NCBI GenBank assembly: GCA_002989075.1
Contig: PSQN01000004.1
Location: 372,001 to 436,000 of the forward strand
Source of the DNA: Arthonia radiata
Lineage: Eukaryota; Ascomycota; Arthoniomycetes; Arthoniales; Arthoniaceae
DNA: 64,000 nucleotides
Reading direction: 5' to 3'
Positions 24,972-60,508 of the stretch are shown here, one piece after another (positions within the stretch are counted from its first letter, which is position 1; every line of letters begins with the position of its first letter). Both the position numbers and the translations under genes were made by a program. The notes under the pieces were generated by a model. The model worked only from the letters and a program-made list of their open reading frames with translations. It searched no databases and had not been told where the DNA came from.

Positions 24972-26023
24972 ATGGCAACTAACGACTACGGACCTGCCAT
25001 CACTTCCTTATCTTCTGACATCGCAAACCTACGTGCGGTGATAGAAGCCCTCTCGTCACATGTGAACATTACGCAAGCCTCCGTTGACGGCATGGCACAT
25101 GCACTCGGTGGCGCTGTTCATGATATCGCCGGTACGTTTAGCAAATATGCTACGAACCTCCTACGTACCTGTCCTTTAATTCTGATCTGAATCATAGATG
25201 CCCAAGCGCTCTCCCAAACCGCCGCTGCCGCCGCTAACAACGCCTCAAGGGCAGCTATAGGTATTCTACTCCTGCTCATAGCCACTTGATCTCCAATAGG
25301 ACCTCTCAACTAACGCTGCCAATAGCAAATGCTCTACCCACTTACACCTTTGCTTTGATCACACTTACCCAAGTCTGGACGCTCATCGAGATGTTCATCA
25401 CCCTTCTAGCCGGCCTTTATGCACTCTACGTAGGCTGGAAGAAAATCAAAGCGATCGTAGTCTTAGTGTTCAGTTGGAAAGGCGACCTGACCATGGACCA
25501 GCAGAGACGACAAACAGTGACGCAGACCGTGCAAAAGAATTTCGGCACCCAAGATTACGTCGTCTTGGTGGTGCTGCAAGAGATCCTCAAGCGCACCGGG
25601 AAGAAGGAAGAAGCAGACTTACTCCGACAAGTGCAGCAGGCCGCGGAAGGACCGAAGATCCAGGAGATGGAGCGAGCGTGCCAGAAGGTCGGCAACTCGG
25701 TCACGCCAGCCGACTCCGAGACCAAAGCGCAAAGCCTGATCACGCAGGCCATTACAGCGTTGGAGAAGAAATGGCAAGAGGCTGAAAAGACGCGTCTCGA
25801 TGCCGAAGAGGGATCGAGAGAGCGAGATGCGAGGATTGAAGAGTATGAACGGCGTGGGCGTGAGGCGGCGAACAGTAGACCGCTTTTCTGGAGGTTTCCT
25901 TCATGGAGGATGGATGCAGAATCGCACACGGAGCAGAGGAGTATGGAGGAGGGCCGCAGTGGTAAGTCTATGCGCTCACGAACATTGTCGCCGAGGCCTC
26001 GTGTTTCTATGACGACGCTGTGA
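24972..26023 (+). CDS. Membrane-helix family protein, copy A (unnamed family)
   Basis: Three exons, 24972-25131, 25198-25260 and 25326-26023, give 306 aa. Both introns (66 and 65 bp) are phase 1; the second has a textbook CTAAC branch and AATAG acceptor, and the nearer AG would meet a stop. The first 75 residues are Ala/Ser-rich helix (ITSLSSDIANLRAVIEALSS). One hydrophobic helix follows (WTLIEMFITLLAGLYALYVG, about residues 90-109). Next comes a 45-residue block (KKIKAIVVLVFSWKGDLT, QKNFGTQDYVVLVVLQEIL, KKEEADLLRQV). The end is a charged coiled coil (about residues 180-265) and a basic tail. There is no signal peptide. I recognise no known family, but copies B and C nearby share the architecture, intron phases and spacing. 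A membrane-anchored helical protein; role unknown. Confidence 0.72.
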
Positions 26024-27060
26024 TGTTTGTGAGCCTCGCTGGCTTGGGCGGTTTATGGAGTCTCTGTACCTCCATCTCTTACCAGGCGTTACGGAGGACC
26101 TTGTCGCGTTCAGCAAGGGGAAAGCATGTCTATGAATTGGACATGATCAACCTCCAGACACGTCTCCGAGTCAGTTCTGATCACGCTTGTCTTTGTTCAA
26201 TGTCTGCTGCGGCCTGCGCTGTGAGTGCCACAGCCTACCGAAACATCACACAGGAAGCGTGGCCTCGTAGGCCGACGAAAGAATTGCCTTATCAGGCAGC
26301 CAACGATGGTTTTGGCACGGTCTCCTATCTTCTGCTTCGCAAGACATCTCAGTTCGTTCACGATCTCATCCCGTGCGAGAGTCGCCACAGGAGAGCCGTG
26401 GCGCTTTGTGTATGATGCTCTGATCCTCATCAGAAATGTGTCTTATCGGCGCCGCGGCGGTAAACCTCTGGCCGCCGTCACGAAGATGACACAGTCTCAC
26501 TGCTATAACTTCTCATCGAGGTATATCGTGCCAGATCTTAAGGATGTCGCCGAGCTTGAAATAGTCCTCGCCAGCTCTCAGAGACGCCCGCAATTGTGGC
26601 AGATACGTTGCAGTAAGAACTATGACTACGTATGAAAATACTGTCACGTCAGTGAAAACCGCCCCCTTTGGATGGCGTTGCCTCCTCGCTTTGTCGACCA
26701 CAGTGAGGACGTCACGGTCGCGTTGCTGTTACTTTCTCATCAGGGTATATCGTGCAAGTTCTCAGCGAGGTCTATGTATGCGAAGCGGCCTGAGTTTGAG
26801 CTCAGGCTTCAGCTACGTCTGATACTGGCCATTACCTGTCTCATGTCATGTCTAACTCATGCTCAGCTTGTGGTTATGAATTCGTTTTCACGGCATTGCT
26901 TCCCATACCAAAAACTTCTACAAAGCCTGTGTCATCTCGCATAGCATCATCTTAAGCTATCAATACCAGCGCGTCGCACCGTTCATTCGGAGCGCTGGTG
27001 ATCGGCTCTCGACATTACCTAGACAAAATCACATCCCTACGGACGCCTGAAGCCCGTACT
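26024..27060. other. Spacer with repeated ATCGAGGTATATCGTG-type motif
   Basis: 1.04 kb between copies A and B. No open frame is convincing. A 16-base motif ATCGAGGTATATCGTG occurs at 26515-26530 and again with two changes at 26739-26754, each preceded by CTTCTC/CTTTCTC. The same 16-mer recurs exactly at 29930-29945, upstream of copy C. It may be a shared regulatory element or a relic of the duplication. Confidence 0.45.
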
Positions 27061-28174
27061 ATGACTGACCGATATTCTGTGCAGGCTGAGTCCATGCAAG
27101 AAATTGCGAAGAGCATCTCGGCGATTGCTGACCTCGCCGGCAATTGTACAAAGCACCAAATCAAACGCAGTGGTGCGTATCAGGCATCGATTGATGTCAA
27201 GGGTTCCAAAACAGCTAATGAAGCCTTCAAGATATTGAATCGATGCTTCAGGGTGTCAAGCAAATTTGTAAGGGTGAGTACAGCGATGCAGCCGTTGGTC
27301 CATGTGATCAAGCTTCGACTGGAGCAATGTCCTGCTAATTCATGTTTCAGACAGCGCGACACCGCGCTGGAGTTCTGACCTTTCCACAACCACTCAGATG
27401 TGTGCGTTGTTAATGATGCTCGGTGCATTGATGACCTTCAGCCTCAATGTTGTTGTGAGACTGAACAAGCTTGGAGCGATGGTAGCCTTACTTTCTAGCC
27501 ACAGTGACTGGACGAGGAATCAAGAAAAGTGCATGAAGCTTGTCGAGATATTACAGAAAGATTGGACGACGGTCGACTGCCTGATACTCCATCTTGTGAA
27601 GTTCTGTCTTCGAGGATCAGGGCGCGCAGCCAAGGCAGACCTTGTCGACAAAGTCCTCAAAGCAGCTGACCATGAACAGAGGGAGAAAATGACTAAAGCT
27701 CGCATGGCCGTCGGATTGCGGAGGATCTCACCGCAGCCAAGGTCGTCTTTGCGGCTCAATGAGAACCACCGCGCAAGTTTGATGGAGCTTGGTCAAATGC
27801 GCGAACAGCAAGAGCCAGCGCCCACGAAATTGCGAAAGCCTATCAACAGCAGAGCCAGCGATAACGCCGATAAAAAGGCGAAAGAGCAGCTGTCGAGGGA
27901 GAGCAACGACGCGTTACTCGGAAATGAGGAGGACACTAGCGACAAATCTGTGTCCTACATGAAAGAAATATCGAGTATAGAGGCGAATTTCGAGCGCCGC
28001 CAGGAAGACATCGTAAACACATTTCGGTCCCAGAAACCAAAGGGGCATCTGGAGAAGTTGCATGCATTTTCAGGCGTGGCTGCTCTATACGAGCTTAAAA
28101 AGCAGAGACAAGAGGAATGGGCGCAAATGGGTGCAATCAGACCTCGAACGACTAGCCGCAAGAAAAGCCAGTGA
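27061..28174 (+). CDS. Membrane-helix family protein, copy B
   Basis: Three exons, 27061-27172, 27232-27273 (42 nt) and 27351-28174, give 325 aa. Intron 1 (27173-27231, GTGCGT, branch GCTAATG, CAAG) and intron 2 (27274-27350, GTGAGT, branch TGCTAAT, TTTCAG) are both phase 1, as in copy A. Exon 3 is open only in the phase this requires. After a helical N-terminus there is one hydrophobic helix (MCALLMMLGALMTFSLNVVV). The family block follows (LNKLGAMVALLSSHSDW, then LQKDWTTVDCLILHLVKF and AAKADLVDKVLKAAD), then a long charged disordered and coiled-coil tail ending in Lys/Arg. A start at 27094 (MQEIAKSIS) is possible. Function unknown. Confidence 0.65.
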
Positions 28175-28492
28175 AGTTGCTAGACCTATGCCTGCCCTTG
28201 TAATGTGTTCCGGGTACTTTCGGACACTTCAGTCTTCTTCGACTTGCTTGAATACCGCGTGGAATTACCAAACTTAGCATGTTTGTCCAGTAAACCTGTC
28301 TTTCCCGGCCTACGCCTGAAGACACGCTGTCAAATATGCTCAACTATTTATACACGACGGTTTCCTCTCGATGTTTCTCCATCCCGCACCCAGTCATCAC
28401 ACTCAGTTCGTGCAAAGCAAAATCAGCAGATTCATTGCCCCCATCATCATCTAGGCTTCTAGATACAACACGCAACGCGTGCCAGCATCACC

Positions 28493-28854
28493 ATGCTTCC
28501 CTTCAGCACAAAGAGCCCCCTCAACAAACAATCCGAAGACATGATGAACACAATCCAAGACGAGTTCCGCAAAGGCCAGTTCGACCCCAAGAAGTACGGC
28601 ATCAACTACACCGGCGACCTACAGAAGCTAAATGAAGGCGGAAAGAAGGCATTCAGCAAGGTGAGTAGGATGGCAGGATCCTGCATACAAGCCTTCATTG
28701 CCCTTCTTCCTCATTCCATACAAACGCGCAGTTGATCCCGAAGTCTTTGGCCCGTATGTCTCTCGACCAGAGTCATTGGCTAATACCTCACCAGCGCGGC
28801 CAGCTCAAAGCCCGCTTCGAGAAGGACAAGTTGGCCAAGGAACCCAAGGCGTGA
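28493..28854 (+). CDS. Small hypothetical protein with one intron
   Basis: Exon 1 (28493-28660, 56 codons) starts MLPFSTKSPLNKQSEDMMNT and has the strong-looking segment RKGQFDPKKYGINYTGDL. A 71-bp intron (28661-28731, GTGAGT..GCGCAG) leads to exon 2, 28732-28854, giving 96 aa with the end RGQLKARFEKDKLAKEPKA. Alternatively a single longer intron to 28794 joins exon 1 to RGQLKARF in frame and gives 75 aa. The protein is short, basic and without signal peptide or membrane span. I recognise no named family, though it looks like a conserved small fungal protein. Confidence 0.6.
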
Positions 28855-30449
28855 GAGCCCCCATCTCTTTGTCGCTATGTGCTGGCATTGTATATGTGTG
28901 TATCGGATTATGCGGGCAAGATGATCCGCAGATCCGGAGGGCGAGCGTCTCCGTGCGGATCCGGCGGACACGGCAAGCGTTTCTATGTGTCTTGATGGTG
29001 GTCGTGCAGTGTTGGAATGGCATCACATGTCGAGATCTGTCATGACTCCAGGCAAACGTCGCCTTCTTTGTATTCAGTTGAGCACCTGCTGGTGATGCTC
29101 GCGACCAACAACGCTTACTATTGTTGAGAAGCTGGCGGTGCGGAAACTCGTCAATAGCCGAGGTGTTTTCCTCGACGTACGAGCTCTACTAGCACAGTGC
29201 GTACCCAACGGACAGTTTGTAGGATGATGCCAATACTCGCAATAGTACTCGCAGCGGAGTAGAGTGTCGTGGTAAGCTCAAGCACTGTGTGATGTCGAGT
29301 TTTGGAGACGGCATTACGGTCTCAATGGCGAGAAGATGGAAATATAATTACTCTTTTGGGTGTCATGTGATACGTCTCGTCTCATTTATTCCCTCCTAGG
29401 CGTCTTTCCATCCCTTCTTATCATCTCCAAGACGTACGACCGAGTATACACGTCGGCTGGATGCTTGGCAAACCTCGGCTAGATAGGGCCAAAAGATAAT
29501 CTAGATTGAGACAGTAGCACACAAAGAATTTTAGTCAGGGCGCAAATATTCCCAACCCCCCGGCCCTCCGGTCACCTAAGTCCTCCCATAAGGCACCCCC
29601 TTCCTTCGCTACGCTCCGGAGGGACCCTCTCTATGGGCCCCTCCTAGGTTCGCGTCGACCTACGTTTTTACAAGTCATACTAGCCCTCTGGGGGAAGGGG
29701 TTACGTAGTGTGTTTACGGGAACGGAGTAAGTCGGGTAAACCTCGTTTGGTGTTTCGGAGACTAATTGGGATTTTCGGACTCCAGCCGAGGTTTTGGCCC
29801 CATCCAGCCGACCATCACACACCGTATGACCTTCGAATTTTCCAAGAAGGCCGCAAGCAGATATCTCGCGCGAATGTCGCTTATTCTACGCCACTTTTAT
29901 CAGACAAGTTTCAGCTACGATACTTGCCAATCGAGGTATATCGTGTATCAAGTCGCGTCGCATCTTCGGTCTCCCGTATGCTTGAGACCATCTGTCTCCG
30001 TCTCAACCGTGCCAGCGTGCAAGGGAAAGATGCTAGGCGCGATCGCCGCCTGCGACACCTGGCATAGCACAATCGCTACGTTGCCGAAACGTGAAGACCA
30101 TACTATTGCTGGCTCTGGCAAGTGTAATGCGCCAGCTAGATTGCTCTCCTATTTGGGGTATCCGATATTGCTATCTATGCCTTCTTTAGTCTTCTGACAA
30201 TCGCTACTCGAGCAACGTGGTCAAGTTAAAGCGTTTCGTCGTTTCTTACACTTTCGGGGCCGCCGGGAAGTGCAACAGATCCCTTCGCAGCTCGGCAAAC
30301 ACACCACAGTGGCTCTGGCAGAGGCGTCAGTGGAGTGATGATGATACGTCGCCAACTGCGACGAACTCGCCCATGGCTTGTGAGACTCCAAGTAAATCGA
30401 GAGTCCCCCTCCATCACAATCAATTGTATCTTGAACAGGTGTACGAGCG
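28855..30449. other. Gene-poor stretch upstream of copy C
   Basis: 1.6 kb without a convincing gene. It holds a GC-hairpin segment near 29,550-29,760 that differs in texture from its surroundings, and one exact copy of the ATCGAGGTATATCGTG motif (29930-29945). Confidence 0.5.
29545..29760. other. Possible mitochondrial (NUMT) or foreign insert
   Basis: This stretch alternates short C/G runs with a self-complementary core (CTTCGCTACGCTCCGGAGGG; CTCCGGAG is a perfect palindrome). That texture is known from GC clusters in fungal mitochondrial intergenic DNA, and I see nothing like it elsewhere in the window. No gene is encoded. The assignment is a guess from texture only; a decayed transposon end is the alternative. 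Confidence 0.25.
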
Positions 30450-31109
30450 ATGTTCAGAAAGCTGCTGCAGGATAGCGGGATCAGCTACGTTGTGGACGAT
30501 GGTCAAGTGGCCAAGAAGTCCACAGAAGACGCGATCGAGAAGATCAGTGAACAACTGAAAAGCACGTACAATGCTCGCAACTTAATACCGCCATTGCACT
30601 CATGTTGACTGTGCAGGGGACAGACAATATAGCCCTCACGCAAGAGGTAGCTCTGAACGCCGGCAACAACACGCAGAAGATTGACGGTACTTGACACCCT
30701 AGCAGTTCTTTGTTGCAGGTGCAGTAGCACATCCGACTAACCGCGCTACATAGAGCTCGCCAAACGTCCACTCGACCAAGGTGCAACATGGATGAGCCAG
30801 ATCTGGACGATCGTCCTGATCATCTTAGCCACAGCAGGGATACTGTACAAAGCCCACGTCTGCTGGGAGCGGTACAAGCCCCTTGCGGTCTACCTCTCCA
30901 CCTTGAAGGGAAACCGTGAGGGTACGGTGAGGTTCAACAAGGCGGTCGACGAAGTGCGGAAAGACTTCAGCAACGGGGACCGTCTGGTTCTGGGTGTCCT
31001 GAGAAGAGTGTTTGTGTATCTTCGGAAAGATGAAGAGGCGGCTGCGGTTGGGTTGGTATATGAGAGAGCGCGGCGGTGCCATGAGAATTACAAACACGAG
31101 GCGGTTTGA
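30450..31109 (+). CDS. Membrane-helix family protein, copy C
   Basis: The last exon, 30754-31109, is well supported. It joins a preceding exon ending at 30686 through a 67-bp phase-1 intron (GTACTT, branch CGACTAAC, ACATAG). It encodes one hydrophobic helix (WTIVLIILATAGILYKAHV), then the family block (WERYKPLAVYLSTLKGN, VRKDFSNGDRLVLGVLRR, RKDEEAAAVGLVYERARR), and stops about 10 residues later. It therefore lacks the long charged tails of A and B. The 5' part is uncertain. A 51-96 nt coding piece ends at 30686 (ALTQEVALNAGNNTQKID), and an upstream piece starting at the ATG at 30450 (KSTEDAIEKISEQLKS) can be joined by an intron from about 30548 to 30622. A start at 30602 is the alternative. 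Confidence 0.55.
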
Positions 31110-31852
31110 TTTCGCTGATTTTGCGAAGGGAGTCCAGTTCTATCTCAATGACTAGGGCCAGGGCCTTGAAACCTCCGGTGCAGTGGGAGGTGGGTCTCAA
31201 TAGGATCAACTGCGAGCATCGAAAAGACATGCCTTTCCCGAGTCCAAGGGGGAGAATCGTGCCCGGGAAAGGAATGATGCTGTCGCCATCGCTCACACCA
31301 CGACAAAAGCAGATGCAGGCCGAGAGTGCACCCGGGAGTCAAGCCCAATCTACGTGCGTCTCAACTACGTCCGTCCTTCGCGTTCGTTTCCAAGGAAAAT
31401 CTACTCATACTACATCTCGCTTTTGCTGAAAGAGCAAGACGTATGCATCTGGATAAATCTTAACCACGTAAGGTACCACGAAGAAGTGGAATAGAGGTCA
31501 AAAAGCAAGACGTGCGCAGCACTATCTGTGACTTGAAGAGACTCGCCCGATTTTCCGTACACGAGAACTCCAGCTACGTTGCGTCGCATCGAAAGCATTA
31601 TCGCGCGTCAATCGCAGGAGGTGCTGTCATTCGCTTTCAGAGAAGCCGGCTCTTGAAGTCCAGACCGCTCTTTCCAGGTGCCCAGTCTTCATCGCAGCGC
31701 CTCTGATTTACAATGGGCTGCGCGCCTCGCACAATGCTTCTGCGTGTCCGATGTTAATGCGGTCGTGTGACGCTGCTGAGACCAGAGTTTGGCACATGGC
31801 CTTGGTGATACCGCTAAGATGGCAAAGGTGAGAACAAGATCTTCGCTGCCAG
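31110..31852. other. Intergenic stretch, nothing recognised
   Basis: Downstream of copy C. Short open frames exist but none has recognisable or protein-like character. Confidence 0.45.
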
Positions 31853-31995
31853 ACCTCCCATCAGCACACCTCCCGTCACCCACCCCTCCCGTCACCCACC
31901 CCTCCCGTCAGCACACCTCCCATTACCAAGCCTCCCAGCACCAAGCCTCCCAGCACCACACCTCCCAGCACCACACCTTCCATCACCACCTCACT
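31853..31995 (+). repeat. Minisatellite, about nine 15-bp units
   Basis: Nine diverged units of the form CCTCCCAGCACCACA (15-16 bp), C-rich on plus and almost without G. No gene contains it. Confidence 0.85.
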
Positions 31996-32199: not shown

Positions 32200-32900
32200 T
32201 AAATGTTATATACTATGGAGCGGTGATATGGCTGAGATGATATGGCTGATAGCGATGAGATGGTAGTATTAGTGCAGATGGATGTCGTGGAATCGTGAGA
32301 CCGTATGAATGATAAATGCTGAGAGCGGAGATGATTTTCGTGTTGTGGTCAGCAGTCAGCTGTGAGAGCCGAGATGCTGTTCGCATTATGAGAGGCGGTC
32401 ACTTGTGAGAGCGAAGATGACGCTGTCAGAATGGCAGATATGTGTCGTAGCAGGTTCGTCTAACTGGCTTTGTCGTAGCAGTGGTGTTCGTGACAGTATC
32501 CGACGAATGGGTGCAGCTGGTACATCCCGTCAGGACGCGATGAAGTAGGGGGTTGATGGCTTATGAGAGGTGATGTGTATTATTAGACGATGTGGAATTG
32601 TGGTATAGCTGAGATGAAATGGCTGAGATGATATGGCTGGGATGGTTTTCTGGCATTGGTGCAATCTGAAATCGTCAAGTCGTTCTGATTCTTGAGGTTG
32701 AGAGCGAGCCGGTGTTGATCATGGTCTTGATGTTGTGGGGAGGAAGAGTCCAGCTGGTACAGCGGGGTTGACGTCGTGGAGATGGCAAATGTATGCCGTT
32801 GCAAGGTGGTCTGGCTGGCGTTGTCGTAGCAGTCTCGGTCGTGACAATATGCGACGGGTGGGTGTAGCTGAGATGTTCCACGATACGGGATGGTGAGACC
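32200..32900. repeat. Imperfect direct duplication, two units of about 320-350 bp
   Basis: Unit 1 (about 32200-32545) and unit 2 (about 32583-32900) share the order of several blocks. These are gatatggctgagatgatatggctg-type runs at the start (32225 and 32605), then a near-identical pair around ggctttgtcgtagcagt/ggcgttgtcgtagcagt (32468 and 32816), followed by cgtgacagtat/cgtgacaatat and gacgaatgggtgcagctg/gacgggtgggtgtagctg. Identity is patchy, so the event is old. A 132-codon open frame on the minus strand of unit 2 is not matched in unit 1, so I do not call a gene. Confidence 0.65.
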
Positions 32901-51626: not shown

Positions 51627-54156
51627 ATGCAGTACAAGATCATTCTGACCAGTGCTCTTGCACTTGGTGTGGCTGCTCGTCCATTAAAGGATGCTGCTAA
51701 AGGCGATGTTGGAGCGCCGGCGGATCCTGCATTGGTAAGATTCCTTTCCGTTGTTTCGTGTGCCACATACACCGATTGTCAGACACCACTCCTTCCAGTC
51801 GATATTATATAAAACACTGCACAGCAACACCGCGTACTCATATGCTTCTTTATAGCGTCCACAACAGGAGCCTTCAAACGTTCCCGCTCAACCTCTCGAG
51901 GAGCGTGACGGCGGCAGCTATGGCAAAGCGCCATCATCGTACTCATCGCAAAGCAAGCGCGCGAGCTACCAGTCTCAGGACAGTGGCTCTGATGACGAAC
52001 GACCTGCTTCTTACCAAGCTCCAAATACAGGCTACAAGTCCGGTAATCAATACGGCCAGCCGCAGTATGCACCAGCGGGCAACAGCAAACCAGAGTACGG
52101 CCATGCTTCCGCACCGCAAGGGCCCGGAATCTTCGGCCATGGTCCATCGTCGTACGCTGCTCCCAACACTTACGCTGCTCCCAGCACCTACGCTGCGCCC
52201 AGCACCTACGCTGCTCCCAGCACTTACGAGGTGCCAAGCTCGAGCTACTCCGCGCCAGCTGCGTCAAGCGAAGTTCCTGCCCCAAGCTCATACGGCGTCT
52301 CAAGCGAGAGTGAAACGAGCGTGACCCTAACTTCGTACACGTCCACGACGGACCTTCTAAACACAACGCCACCGCCCTACACGTACGTCCCTCCAAGCGC
52401 AACGTCAGGCATCTATCCCATGCCTCAGAATACCTCCAGCCCTGTGAACGTACCGTATGGGGGTGGCCCTGGCCCTTACATTCCTGGTGCTCCTGGTGGC
52501 GGAACCTACGGTCCACCTGGCGGTGGGTATCCCAGCAAGCAGTACGGCGATACCGGGGCTCCCGGCGGCTATTCGGGCCCACAAGGTGGCAACTACGGCG
52601 GTCCTGGCAGTCTTGTCTCCCCTGGAAGTCCTGCTGGCCCGGGAGAGTACGGCCATCCACCTGCGCCCTACGAATCTCAGGGTCAACCGCAAGCTTCGGC
52701 GCCATACGCTTCTGGTCCAAGCGAGTCCTACGAAGCTCCTGCCGGCTATGCCTCAAGCACGTCTGCGACCGCGCAGTACAACACGTTTCCCCAGTATACC
52801 ACTGCAACGACAACACCGTATGGCTATCCACCAGTGCCTTACACACTTGCATCGACACCCACACCAACGCCAAGCAGCTACAACTATCCTAGCAGCTCAA
52901 GCTCAGCTGCAGACACATACAATAGCGCCACTACGATGCCGTATCAGACGTGCCAGCCAGGCCAATATGGCTGTGAAGCTCCGACCCAGCCAGCTTCATA
53001 TGCGCAACCGTCTTCATACGCCTCTTCCGCAGCTGCGCAGTCTTCGTACACCTCGCTCTCAACATACGGGATGCCATCCGGATACACAACTCCATCGCCA
53101 ATTCCATCTTCGTATAACGCGCCTTCCCAGTACACCCAACCCTCCCAATACACCCAACCCTCCCAATACACCCAACCCTCCCAATACACCCAACCCTCCC
53201 AATACACCCAACCCTCCCAATACACCCAACCCTCCCAATACACCCAGCCATCTCAATACACCCAACCATCTCAGTACACCCCACCTACCCAATACAATGC
53301 ACCTCAAACCACAGCGCCCTCAGACTACCAACCTACTCAACCCGCCCAACCCGCCCAATTCCAACCCTACTCCTCGGCAGCAGACCAATACTCCACCGCC
53401 GCGCCCTCCAACACCACAGCTGCCTACCCCACTATCACCGCCGCGCCCACTTGCGGCCCTGAGTTATACGGACAGGGCACTTGTACCGCGCCCACTGCCG
53501 CGCCAGCGCAAACTTATCCCGCGCCTGCGCCTGTGAAGGGCTACGAGGGTTGTGCAGAGGGTGATTATGGGTGTTCGAGTGCTGCTGCATCGACGCAGCC
53601 GGCGACGTCAGCTGCTGAAGGGTATAGCTCTAGCTCGAGCTCTACGACGAGCACGACGAGCACAGCCGGGCCTGTACAGACCTGCACCCCAGGCAGCTAT
53701 GGGTGTGAAGCGGATAAGGGTGACGTGAAGCCAGATCAACCTGAGGGGTACGAGAAGCCGGCGGAGAAAGGCTACGAAGCACCTGCGACATCGCAGGCTT
53801 CTGAGTACGCGGCACCGTCAAGCTCATCGACGACGAGCACGACCAGCACAGCCGCGCCCGTTGAGACGTGCGCACCGGGGAGCTATGGGTGTGAGGCGGG
53901 CAAGGCAAGTGACCTGGCACGGAGTCAACCTGCGGGATATGAGAAGCCCGCGGAGAAAGGGTATGAAGCGCCAGCCGCGTCGTTAGCTTCAGAGTACGCG
54001 GCGCCGTCAAGTACCTCCACCACCAGCGCCACAAGTACAGCAGCTCCGACGCAGCCGTCGAAGACTTATGCGGATCAAGCTGTTGAGACGACGCCGGCGG
54101 CGCCTGCAGGGTATGGAGGTGAAGATAAGGGCAGTGAGGGTGGTGAGAAAGGGTAA
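51627..54156 (+). CDS. Secreted Tyr/Pro/Ser repeat protein with Cys modules
   Basis: Exon 1 (51627-51734) encodes a signal peptide (MQYKIILTSALALGVAARPL). A 121-bp intron (GTAAGA..TTTATAG) leads to exon 2, 51856-54156; total 802 aa. The acceptor at 51867 is an in-frame alternative. The mature protein is almost wholly low-complexity: Y-A-A-P-S-T repeats (near residue 135), a Gly/Pro/Tyr collagen-like stretch (about 240-310), nine SQYTQP-type repeats (about 460-513), and long Ser/Thr/Ala tracts suited to O-glycosylation. Dispersed through it are short Cys modules, C-x-P-G-x-Y-G-C (TCQPGQYGCE, TCTPGSYGCE, TCAPGSYGCE, plus variants). The last two sit in duplicated 60-residue units with EKPAEKGYEAPA. 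No GPI signal is evident. Likely a cell-wall or matrix protein or adhesin; family not recognised. Confidence 0.75.
53125..53286 (+). repeat. In-frame 18-bp tandem repeat, nine units (SQYTQP)
   Basis: Nine units of TCCCAATACACCCAACCC inside the secreted protein gene, the first six nearly identical at DNA level and the last three diverged. The low divergence points to recent expansion or ongoing homogenisation. Confidence 0.9.
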
Positions 54157-60065: not shown

Positions 60066-60508
60066 ATCGACACGAGCAGACCATAACAACAATATTGATT
60101 GCTGTGTTTGTAACGGTCTAGGATGACATCTTACTGACGTAAGAATCGAGTGCCTGACAGCCCACAAATTTGTTGTTGAGGTTCACGGACGAAGTCCGAA
60201 AGCTTTGTTGATTAACAACCGACGGGAACGGACCCAGTTCATCCAAGACCAGGTCGCACGGAGGTGTGTCTTCACACTGGCGTGGCTCTTCGTAGCAGGA
60301 ACTGTAGCAACCACGGGATACTTCGATACTGCATGCCAGCTCGTCGGGTGAACATGGCACGAGTGTATTACGGTTGTTTCCAAGGGTTCGGGATGACAGT
60401 GATTCTCCTTCGCAGGCGTAGACCTCTTTAAAAGATTTTATCCTGGCTTTTACATCGCTATCGTTCCCGCGGAATCGCGATACTCCAATGCTCTCATTAC
60501 TCACGAAG
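60066..60508. other. Convergent intergenic region
   Basis: 443 bp between two convergent genes; open frames here are not protein-like. No feature seen. Confidence 0.5.

Follow-up and report, generated by a model that had tools for sequence, protein, structure and literature searches.

Three clustered genes for a predicted one-helix membrane protein family without named relatives in Arthonia radiata

Three related genes in one locus

The DNA analysed here is a stretch of 64,000 nucleotides from the genome of the ascomycete Arthonia radiata (assembly GCA_002989075.1, contig PSQN01000004.1, positions 372,001 to 436,000 of the forward strand); it is called the window below, and positions are given in its own numbering. 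It contains three related genes, A, B and C, each encoding a protein with one hydrophobic helix followed by a block of ~80 residues. All three are on the + strand inside 6138 bases, with a small open reading frame (ORF) separating B from C, and the locus is ~0.4 Mb from the nearer end of the contig. The genes were picked out in an earlier sequence-only reading of the window, and the three coding segments are where that reading placed them; open ORFs are found there and the coordinates are right. The helix and the block are both encoded in the third exon. In A (25326..26023, + strand), this exon carries the membrane helix, the conserved block, a charged tail and the stop. The homologous exon of B (27351..28174, +) has the same order of parts with a long charged tail, and that of C (30754..31109, +) stops without a tail; both are drawn from the homology to A and the splice model. 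From stop to stop, the exon-3 ORFs are 261, 288 and 122 codons in A, B and C, and the modelled proteins are 306, 325 and 171 residues long.

We searched the whole genome (33.5 Mb in 16 contigs) in six frames with each protein. A as the query gave six matches: its own three exons, B at an expectation value (E) of 4.7e-8, C at E 4.3e-5 and a match on a different contig, C2, at E 0.399. B as the query found A at E 6.3e-8 and did not find C, and C as the query found A at E 1.9e-6 and did not find B. A consensus query run against the genome recovers A, B and C by construction and nothing more up to E 10. A profile of the three proteins was run against 6165 six-frame ORFs from 244 kb, made up of the window and 180 kb flanking it. 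It also recovers A, B and C by construction, and the next match, at E 0.84, is at chance level. The protein queries of the genome yielded no further credible copy among the best candidates; only those are scored in such a search, and therefore a very diverged further copy could escape it.

Shuffle tests gauge each pair separately. Over the helix and block, the z scores are 21.6 for A–B, 16.0 for A–C and 2.9 for B–C, with 14 of 1000 shuffles as good in the last case. When the hydrophobic helix is left out, the block still gives 16.8 for A–B and 7.2 for A–C, with none of 2000 shuffles as good for either, and 3.4 for B–C (23 of 2000). Whole proteins give 14.6, 14.9 and 1.6, and for B–C, 75 of 1000 shuffles score as high. 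By sequence comparison the A–B and A–C relationships are secure. Taken with the genome searches, these tests uphold the earlier proposal that A, B and C are paralogues related beyond chance, with B–C the marginal pair.

We also considered whether three unrelated one-helix proteins of similar composition could have come to look alike by convergence. The B–C scores over the helix and block and over whole proteins are what one would expect in that case, but A–B and A–C beat every shuffle without any contribution from the hydrophobic helix, and the genome search with A returns just these neighbors and the one match at E 0.399. In addition, a phase-1 intron stands ahead of the helix in all three chosen gene models, and B and C have upstream DNA in common (see below). 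Convergence is accordingly disfavoured, to the point of being hardly credible.

Over the aligned segment, the ratio of the proportions of nonsynonymous and synonymous differences (pN/pS) is 0.52 for A–B, 0.58 for A–C and 0.76 for B–C, values that carry no error range. The synonymous term, pS, is 0.90, 0.82 and 0.75 for the same pairs, which is near saturation. Together, these values suggest that the duplication is old and that the proteins have been under constraint. On sequence comparison, A, B and C are paralogues, most probably old local duplicates of one gene.

Shared plan, introns and upstream DNA

The conserved block is laid out at nearly fixed distances. From the residue just past the membrane helix to a conserved D there are 39, 39 and 38 residues in A, B and C, and the spacing of 44, 44 and 43 given in the sequence-only reading is correct when counted inclusively from the same residue to the L of D-x-x-V/I-L. 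A K-x-(F/W) motif stands ahead of the D, and the fuller form noted earlier, (Q/R)K(N/D)(F/W) four residues ahead of the D, is present in all three proteins. The next predicted helix begins at the D itself or at a residue beside it. The earlier description also included a helix with L-x-x-V; that motif is found in A, but in B and C it reads V-x-x-V.

Outside the helix and block, the proteins have little in common. The common helical N-terminus that was part of the original description is without sequence support, as 1504 (A–B), 456 (A–C) and 1079 (B–C) of 2000 shuffles are as good as the real comparison. The tails of A and B are similarly charged (37% and 35% of residues) and have no detectable similarity, with 1331 of 2000 shuffles as good; C has no tail. 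The second exons are weakly alike between A and C (318 of 10000 shuffles as good), with 1216 for A–B and 9034 for B–C. The plan noted earlier is thus upheld where the helix, the block and the intron ahead of the helix are concerned, and not for the N-terminus.

The remaining exons vary in how well they are fixed. Exon 1 of A (24972..25131, +), which encodes the N-terminal part, is an open frame ending in a GTACGT donor in phase 1, and the 63-nt exon 2 (25198..25260, +) has phase-1 introns on both sides. Exon 1 of B (27061..27172, +) ends in a GTGCGT donor, also in phase 1, with alternative open joins. The 42-nt exon 2 of B (27232..27273, +) is tentative, being one among several open joins and using an AAG acceptor; it is followed by a phase-1 intron of the form GTGAGT...CTAAT...CAG. 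In C, the weakly supported exon 1 (30450..30546, +) uses a GTGAAC donor and the second of two close CAG acceptors to join a 63-nt exon 2 (30624..30686, +), which matches A exon 2 in length in the chosen models and bears a weak likeness to it. An alternative start for C at ATG 30602 would give a protein of 146 residues.

In the chosen models, all six introns are in phase 1, and the second exons are 63, 42 and 63 nt. The agreement in phase is partly one of choice, because the joins in B and C were picked from several with the plan of A in mind. The second intron, directly before the membrane helix, is the firmer of the two. In all three genes a CTAAC or CTAAT site stands close to its 3' end, and it is in phase 1 because the frame of exon 3 fixes the phase once the acceptor is given. 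In C, all 32 of the listed open joins use the chosen acceptor for this intron; 19 open joins are listed for B, some with different acceptors. As for the first intron, that of A looks clean, that of B is one of several options and that of C is weak. Hence, the earlier claim of phase-1 introns ahead of the helix holds for the second intron with the chosen acceptors in all three genes, but B has other open joins and the first intron is poorly fixed in B and C.

Upstream of B and C there is a 16-base element, ATCGAGGTATATCGTG. Its first copy is at 26515..26530 (+), 546 bases 5' of the start of B, and the second, with two mismatches, is at 26739..26754 (+), 322 bases 5' of the same start. The third, at 29930..29945 (+), is exact and is 520 bases 5' of the modelled start of C and 672 bases 5' of the alternative start. 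A 15-base pattern, TCRRGGTATATCGTG, occurs three times in the genome, every time here, on one strand and within 3.5 kb, twice upstream of B and once upstream of C; the reversed control pattern has no genomic occurrence. Some of this rarity is by construction, because the pattern was picked after the repeat had been seen. The upstream kilobases of B and C are alike over ~45 bases, with none of 300 shuffles as good, and the upstream kilobase of A has no significant match to that of B or C (49 and 209 of 300 shuffles as good). The element may be either a remnant of the duplication or a retained control element. An origin as a dispersed transposon is unlikely, since the 151 bases around the first copy match only themselves genome-wide. 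A fourth site resembling ATCGAGGTATATCGTG, at 60312-60327 on the opposite strand with three mismatches, was taken as chance, with 0.33 such sites expected in the window.

Topology, fold and possible roles

By hydropathy, each protein has a single membrane helix and lacks a signal peptide at the N-terminus; 19-residue windows exceed 1.6 in the helix only. The net charge of the 15-residue flanks of the helix is +3, +2 and +2 on the C side in A, B and C and +1, 0 and 0 on the N side, a bias that would place the C side in the cytosol. The four N-glycosylation sequons all fall N-terminal to the helix and the 514 C-side residues contain none, at shuffle p values of 0.095 and 0.135; the presence of a sequon in all three N-terminal parts has a p of 0.073. 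The one-sided placement is weak and only suggestive. Single-pass membrane proteins with the N-terminus out, the C-terminus in and no signal peptide constitute type III, or reverse signal-anchor, proteins. A, B and C resemble these in having one hydrophobic helix and no N-terminal hydrophobic stretch, with positive charge just past the helix and, suggestively, sequons on the N side only. However, type III is a topology class and not a family; the likeness is one of layout, and the orientation of A, B and C is a predicted one.

The fold of the block was approached with AlphaFold2, using three-row alignments of the A, B and C sequences and folding the A and C segments as queries. The A segment is predicted to have helices at 9-53, 60-71, 76-91 and 95-118, with a mean predicted local distance difference test score (pLDDT) of 55.8, and the C segment at 6-51, 55-70, 74-89 and 93-117, with a mean pLDDT of 70.3. 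The two models agree in helix order, at low and moderate confidence, respectively, and with both derived from the same three sequences. With that reserve, A and C pass the structural check set in the sequence-only reading, which would have been failed by unrelated folds. Foldseek comparison to PDB returned 145 matches for the C model and 50 for the A model, none of them at E ≤0.001 and the lowest E being 1.0 among the 50 matches listed for each; scattered matches to helical bundles were put aside as chance. Sequence searches of the solved structures gave one match for A alone (E 1.3) and one for the three-row profile (E 3.7), neither significant.

Family searches were similarly empty. Six Pfam matches were seen (one for A, and two and three for the final models of B and C), and none reaches the curated cut-off; the one and three matches to earlier joins of B and C were all under cut-off as well. 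The lowest E, 0.0079, belongs to FakA-like_C at 16 bits versus a cut-off of 23, and it falls on the poorly supported first exon of C. A death-domain-like block was considered and is unsupported by the Pfam scans or the listed fold matches. Profile-based scans for relatives gave 9 pattern matches in prokaryote genome contigs and 22 in viral contigs, of which none was confirmed. In text searches of the literature, no title or opening of an abstract listed pointed to the family, although a search of this sort is blind to sequence. With no Pfam match above cut-off and no significant solved fold, the proteins match no named family in these libraries. The earlier proposal that an unnamed family of one-helix membrane proteins has expanded locally is supported by the homology statistics, the failure of the protein queries to find a further copy in the genome and of the profile to do so in the 244 kb, the lack of a Pfam assignment and the same predicted helix order in A and C. 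We regard A, B and C as a real orphan membrane family of three members, ordinary in kind and with no relative of known name among the families and structures searched. Orphan families of small size are probably common among fungal membrane proteins and are seldom studied.

Starting from what is observed, namely the paralogy, the single hydrophobic helix, the conserved block, the charge bias beside the helix and the gene order, we propose with a probability of about 0.4 that A, B and C arose by old tandem duplication and encode N-out/C-in single-pass membrane proteins with a cytosolic docking module. The N-terminal 65–84 residues would most likely be luminal or extracellular, and the conserved block most likely cytosolic. 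The block, modelled as a helix running on from the membrane and three shorter helices, would be the working part, a membrane-anchored module for docking or self-association; we infer this because the block has been kept while both ends have diverged. A and B, with their diverged tails, may each bind partners of their own, and the tail-less C could be either a shortened version or a copy in decay.

Several points weigh against this proposal. The similarity of B to C on its own is marginal by the sequence tests, and because of this the B–C link rests mainly on A. There are eight Lys or Arg residues in the N-terminal part of B and eight in that of C, compared with two in A, which does not favour the export of these parts of B and C. 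Codon usage provides no coding evidence: in each of the genes the true frame outscores the other two sense frames, but the single antisense frame tested scores higher still. The structural models, of the A and C segments and built on the same three sequences, are of low and moderate confidence, respectively. Finally, the searches of Pfam and the solved structures gave no known domain or fold to back an adaptor role.

The tails and the state of C bear on a different possibility, that A and B do an ordinary organelle-membrane task, their charged tails serving in tethering or scaffolding, and that C is decaying. The high charge of both tails would suit this, as would the lack of a tail on C, whose exon 1 joins only via the unusual donor and second acceptor described above and whose internal ATG leads to a shorter protein. 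However, the helix and block of C are still open, with the landmarks and the phase-1 intron kept, and the A–C pN/pS of 0.58 is counter to decay. We consider this account possible, if doubtful.

The sequence-only reading had speculated on self-recognition. In that event, the cluster would be an allorecognition locus of diverged membrane receptors or ligands differing between strains. A clustered set of diverged membrane proteins without known domains has some of the expected look. In Neurospora, lineage-specific genes are described as clustered with HET-domain genes near telomeres (PMC10684091), and A, B and C are like the genes so described in being clustered, in having no Pfam match over cut-off and in not being found elsewhere in the genome. 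They differ in that no HET match on the contig is closer than 99.7 kb and the nearer contig end is ~0.4 Mb off; for NACHT, the closest match on this contig is at 735 kb. The genome has at least 24 HET and at least 32 NACHT matches, both counts being lower bounds. HET domains are a mark of filamentous ascomycetes, and these HET matches and the short introns of the three genes fit such a fungus. A HET match within 100 kb is unremarkable, because 24 matches in 33.5 Mb make it about 1 chance in 7. Pfam found no HET or NACHT domain in the A, B and C proteins or, at E 0.01, in the 10 nearby window ORFs that were scanned. Also, the conserved part of these proteins is the predicted cytosolic block and not the outer part. 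These distances leave self-recognition without support, and we judge it quite improbable.

A variant would have A, B and C as an unnamed fungal family of membrane receptors or adaptors, in which the outer parts and tails diversify while the cytosolic helical block and an upstream control element confined to the locus are kept, the copies acting as one co-regulated recognition unit. We regard it as a long shot. Should the copies turn out to vary between strains and to influence hyphal fusion, a recognition system of neither HET nor NLR type would be added to those known; no observation made here speaks for this so far. Testable handles on the proposed membrane-anchored docking proteins are their paralogy, their conserved block and the upstream element.

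Neighbouring features

The locus had been described as lying in gene-poor DNA, which needs qualification, since two features occupy the interval between B and C. One is the small two-exon ORF (28493-28660 joined to 28795-28854), which encodes 75 residues and is Lys-rich. The other is a dispersed repeat of ~385 bases at 29439-29822, with terminal inverted repeats at 29452-29483 and 29781-29812. It has 24 matches in the genome outside itself, including near whole-length ones at 96%, 87% and 75% on contigs C1, C5 and C16, and looks like a small non-autonomous DNA transposon. Just 3' of C, at 31849-31989 and 32216-32870, there are a 15-base minisatellite and diverged repeats that include GGCTGAGATGATATGGCTG-like units.

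Four of the 10 neighbouring ORFs have a Pfam match at E 0.01: a serine dehydratase/alanine racemase type, an F-box-like match (just under cut-off), glycosyl hydrolase 43 and Slx4. No recognition-type domain was seen in any of the 10 at that threshold. Farther along the window, at 51856-54156, there is a long repetitive ORF of 766 codons from stop to stop, in which tandem repeats of 18 bases and a repeat of 189 bases occur; by eye, it is rich in Ser, Tyr, Pro and Gln.

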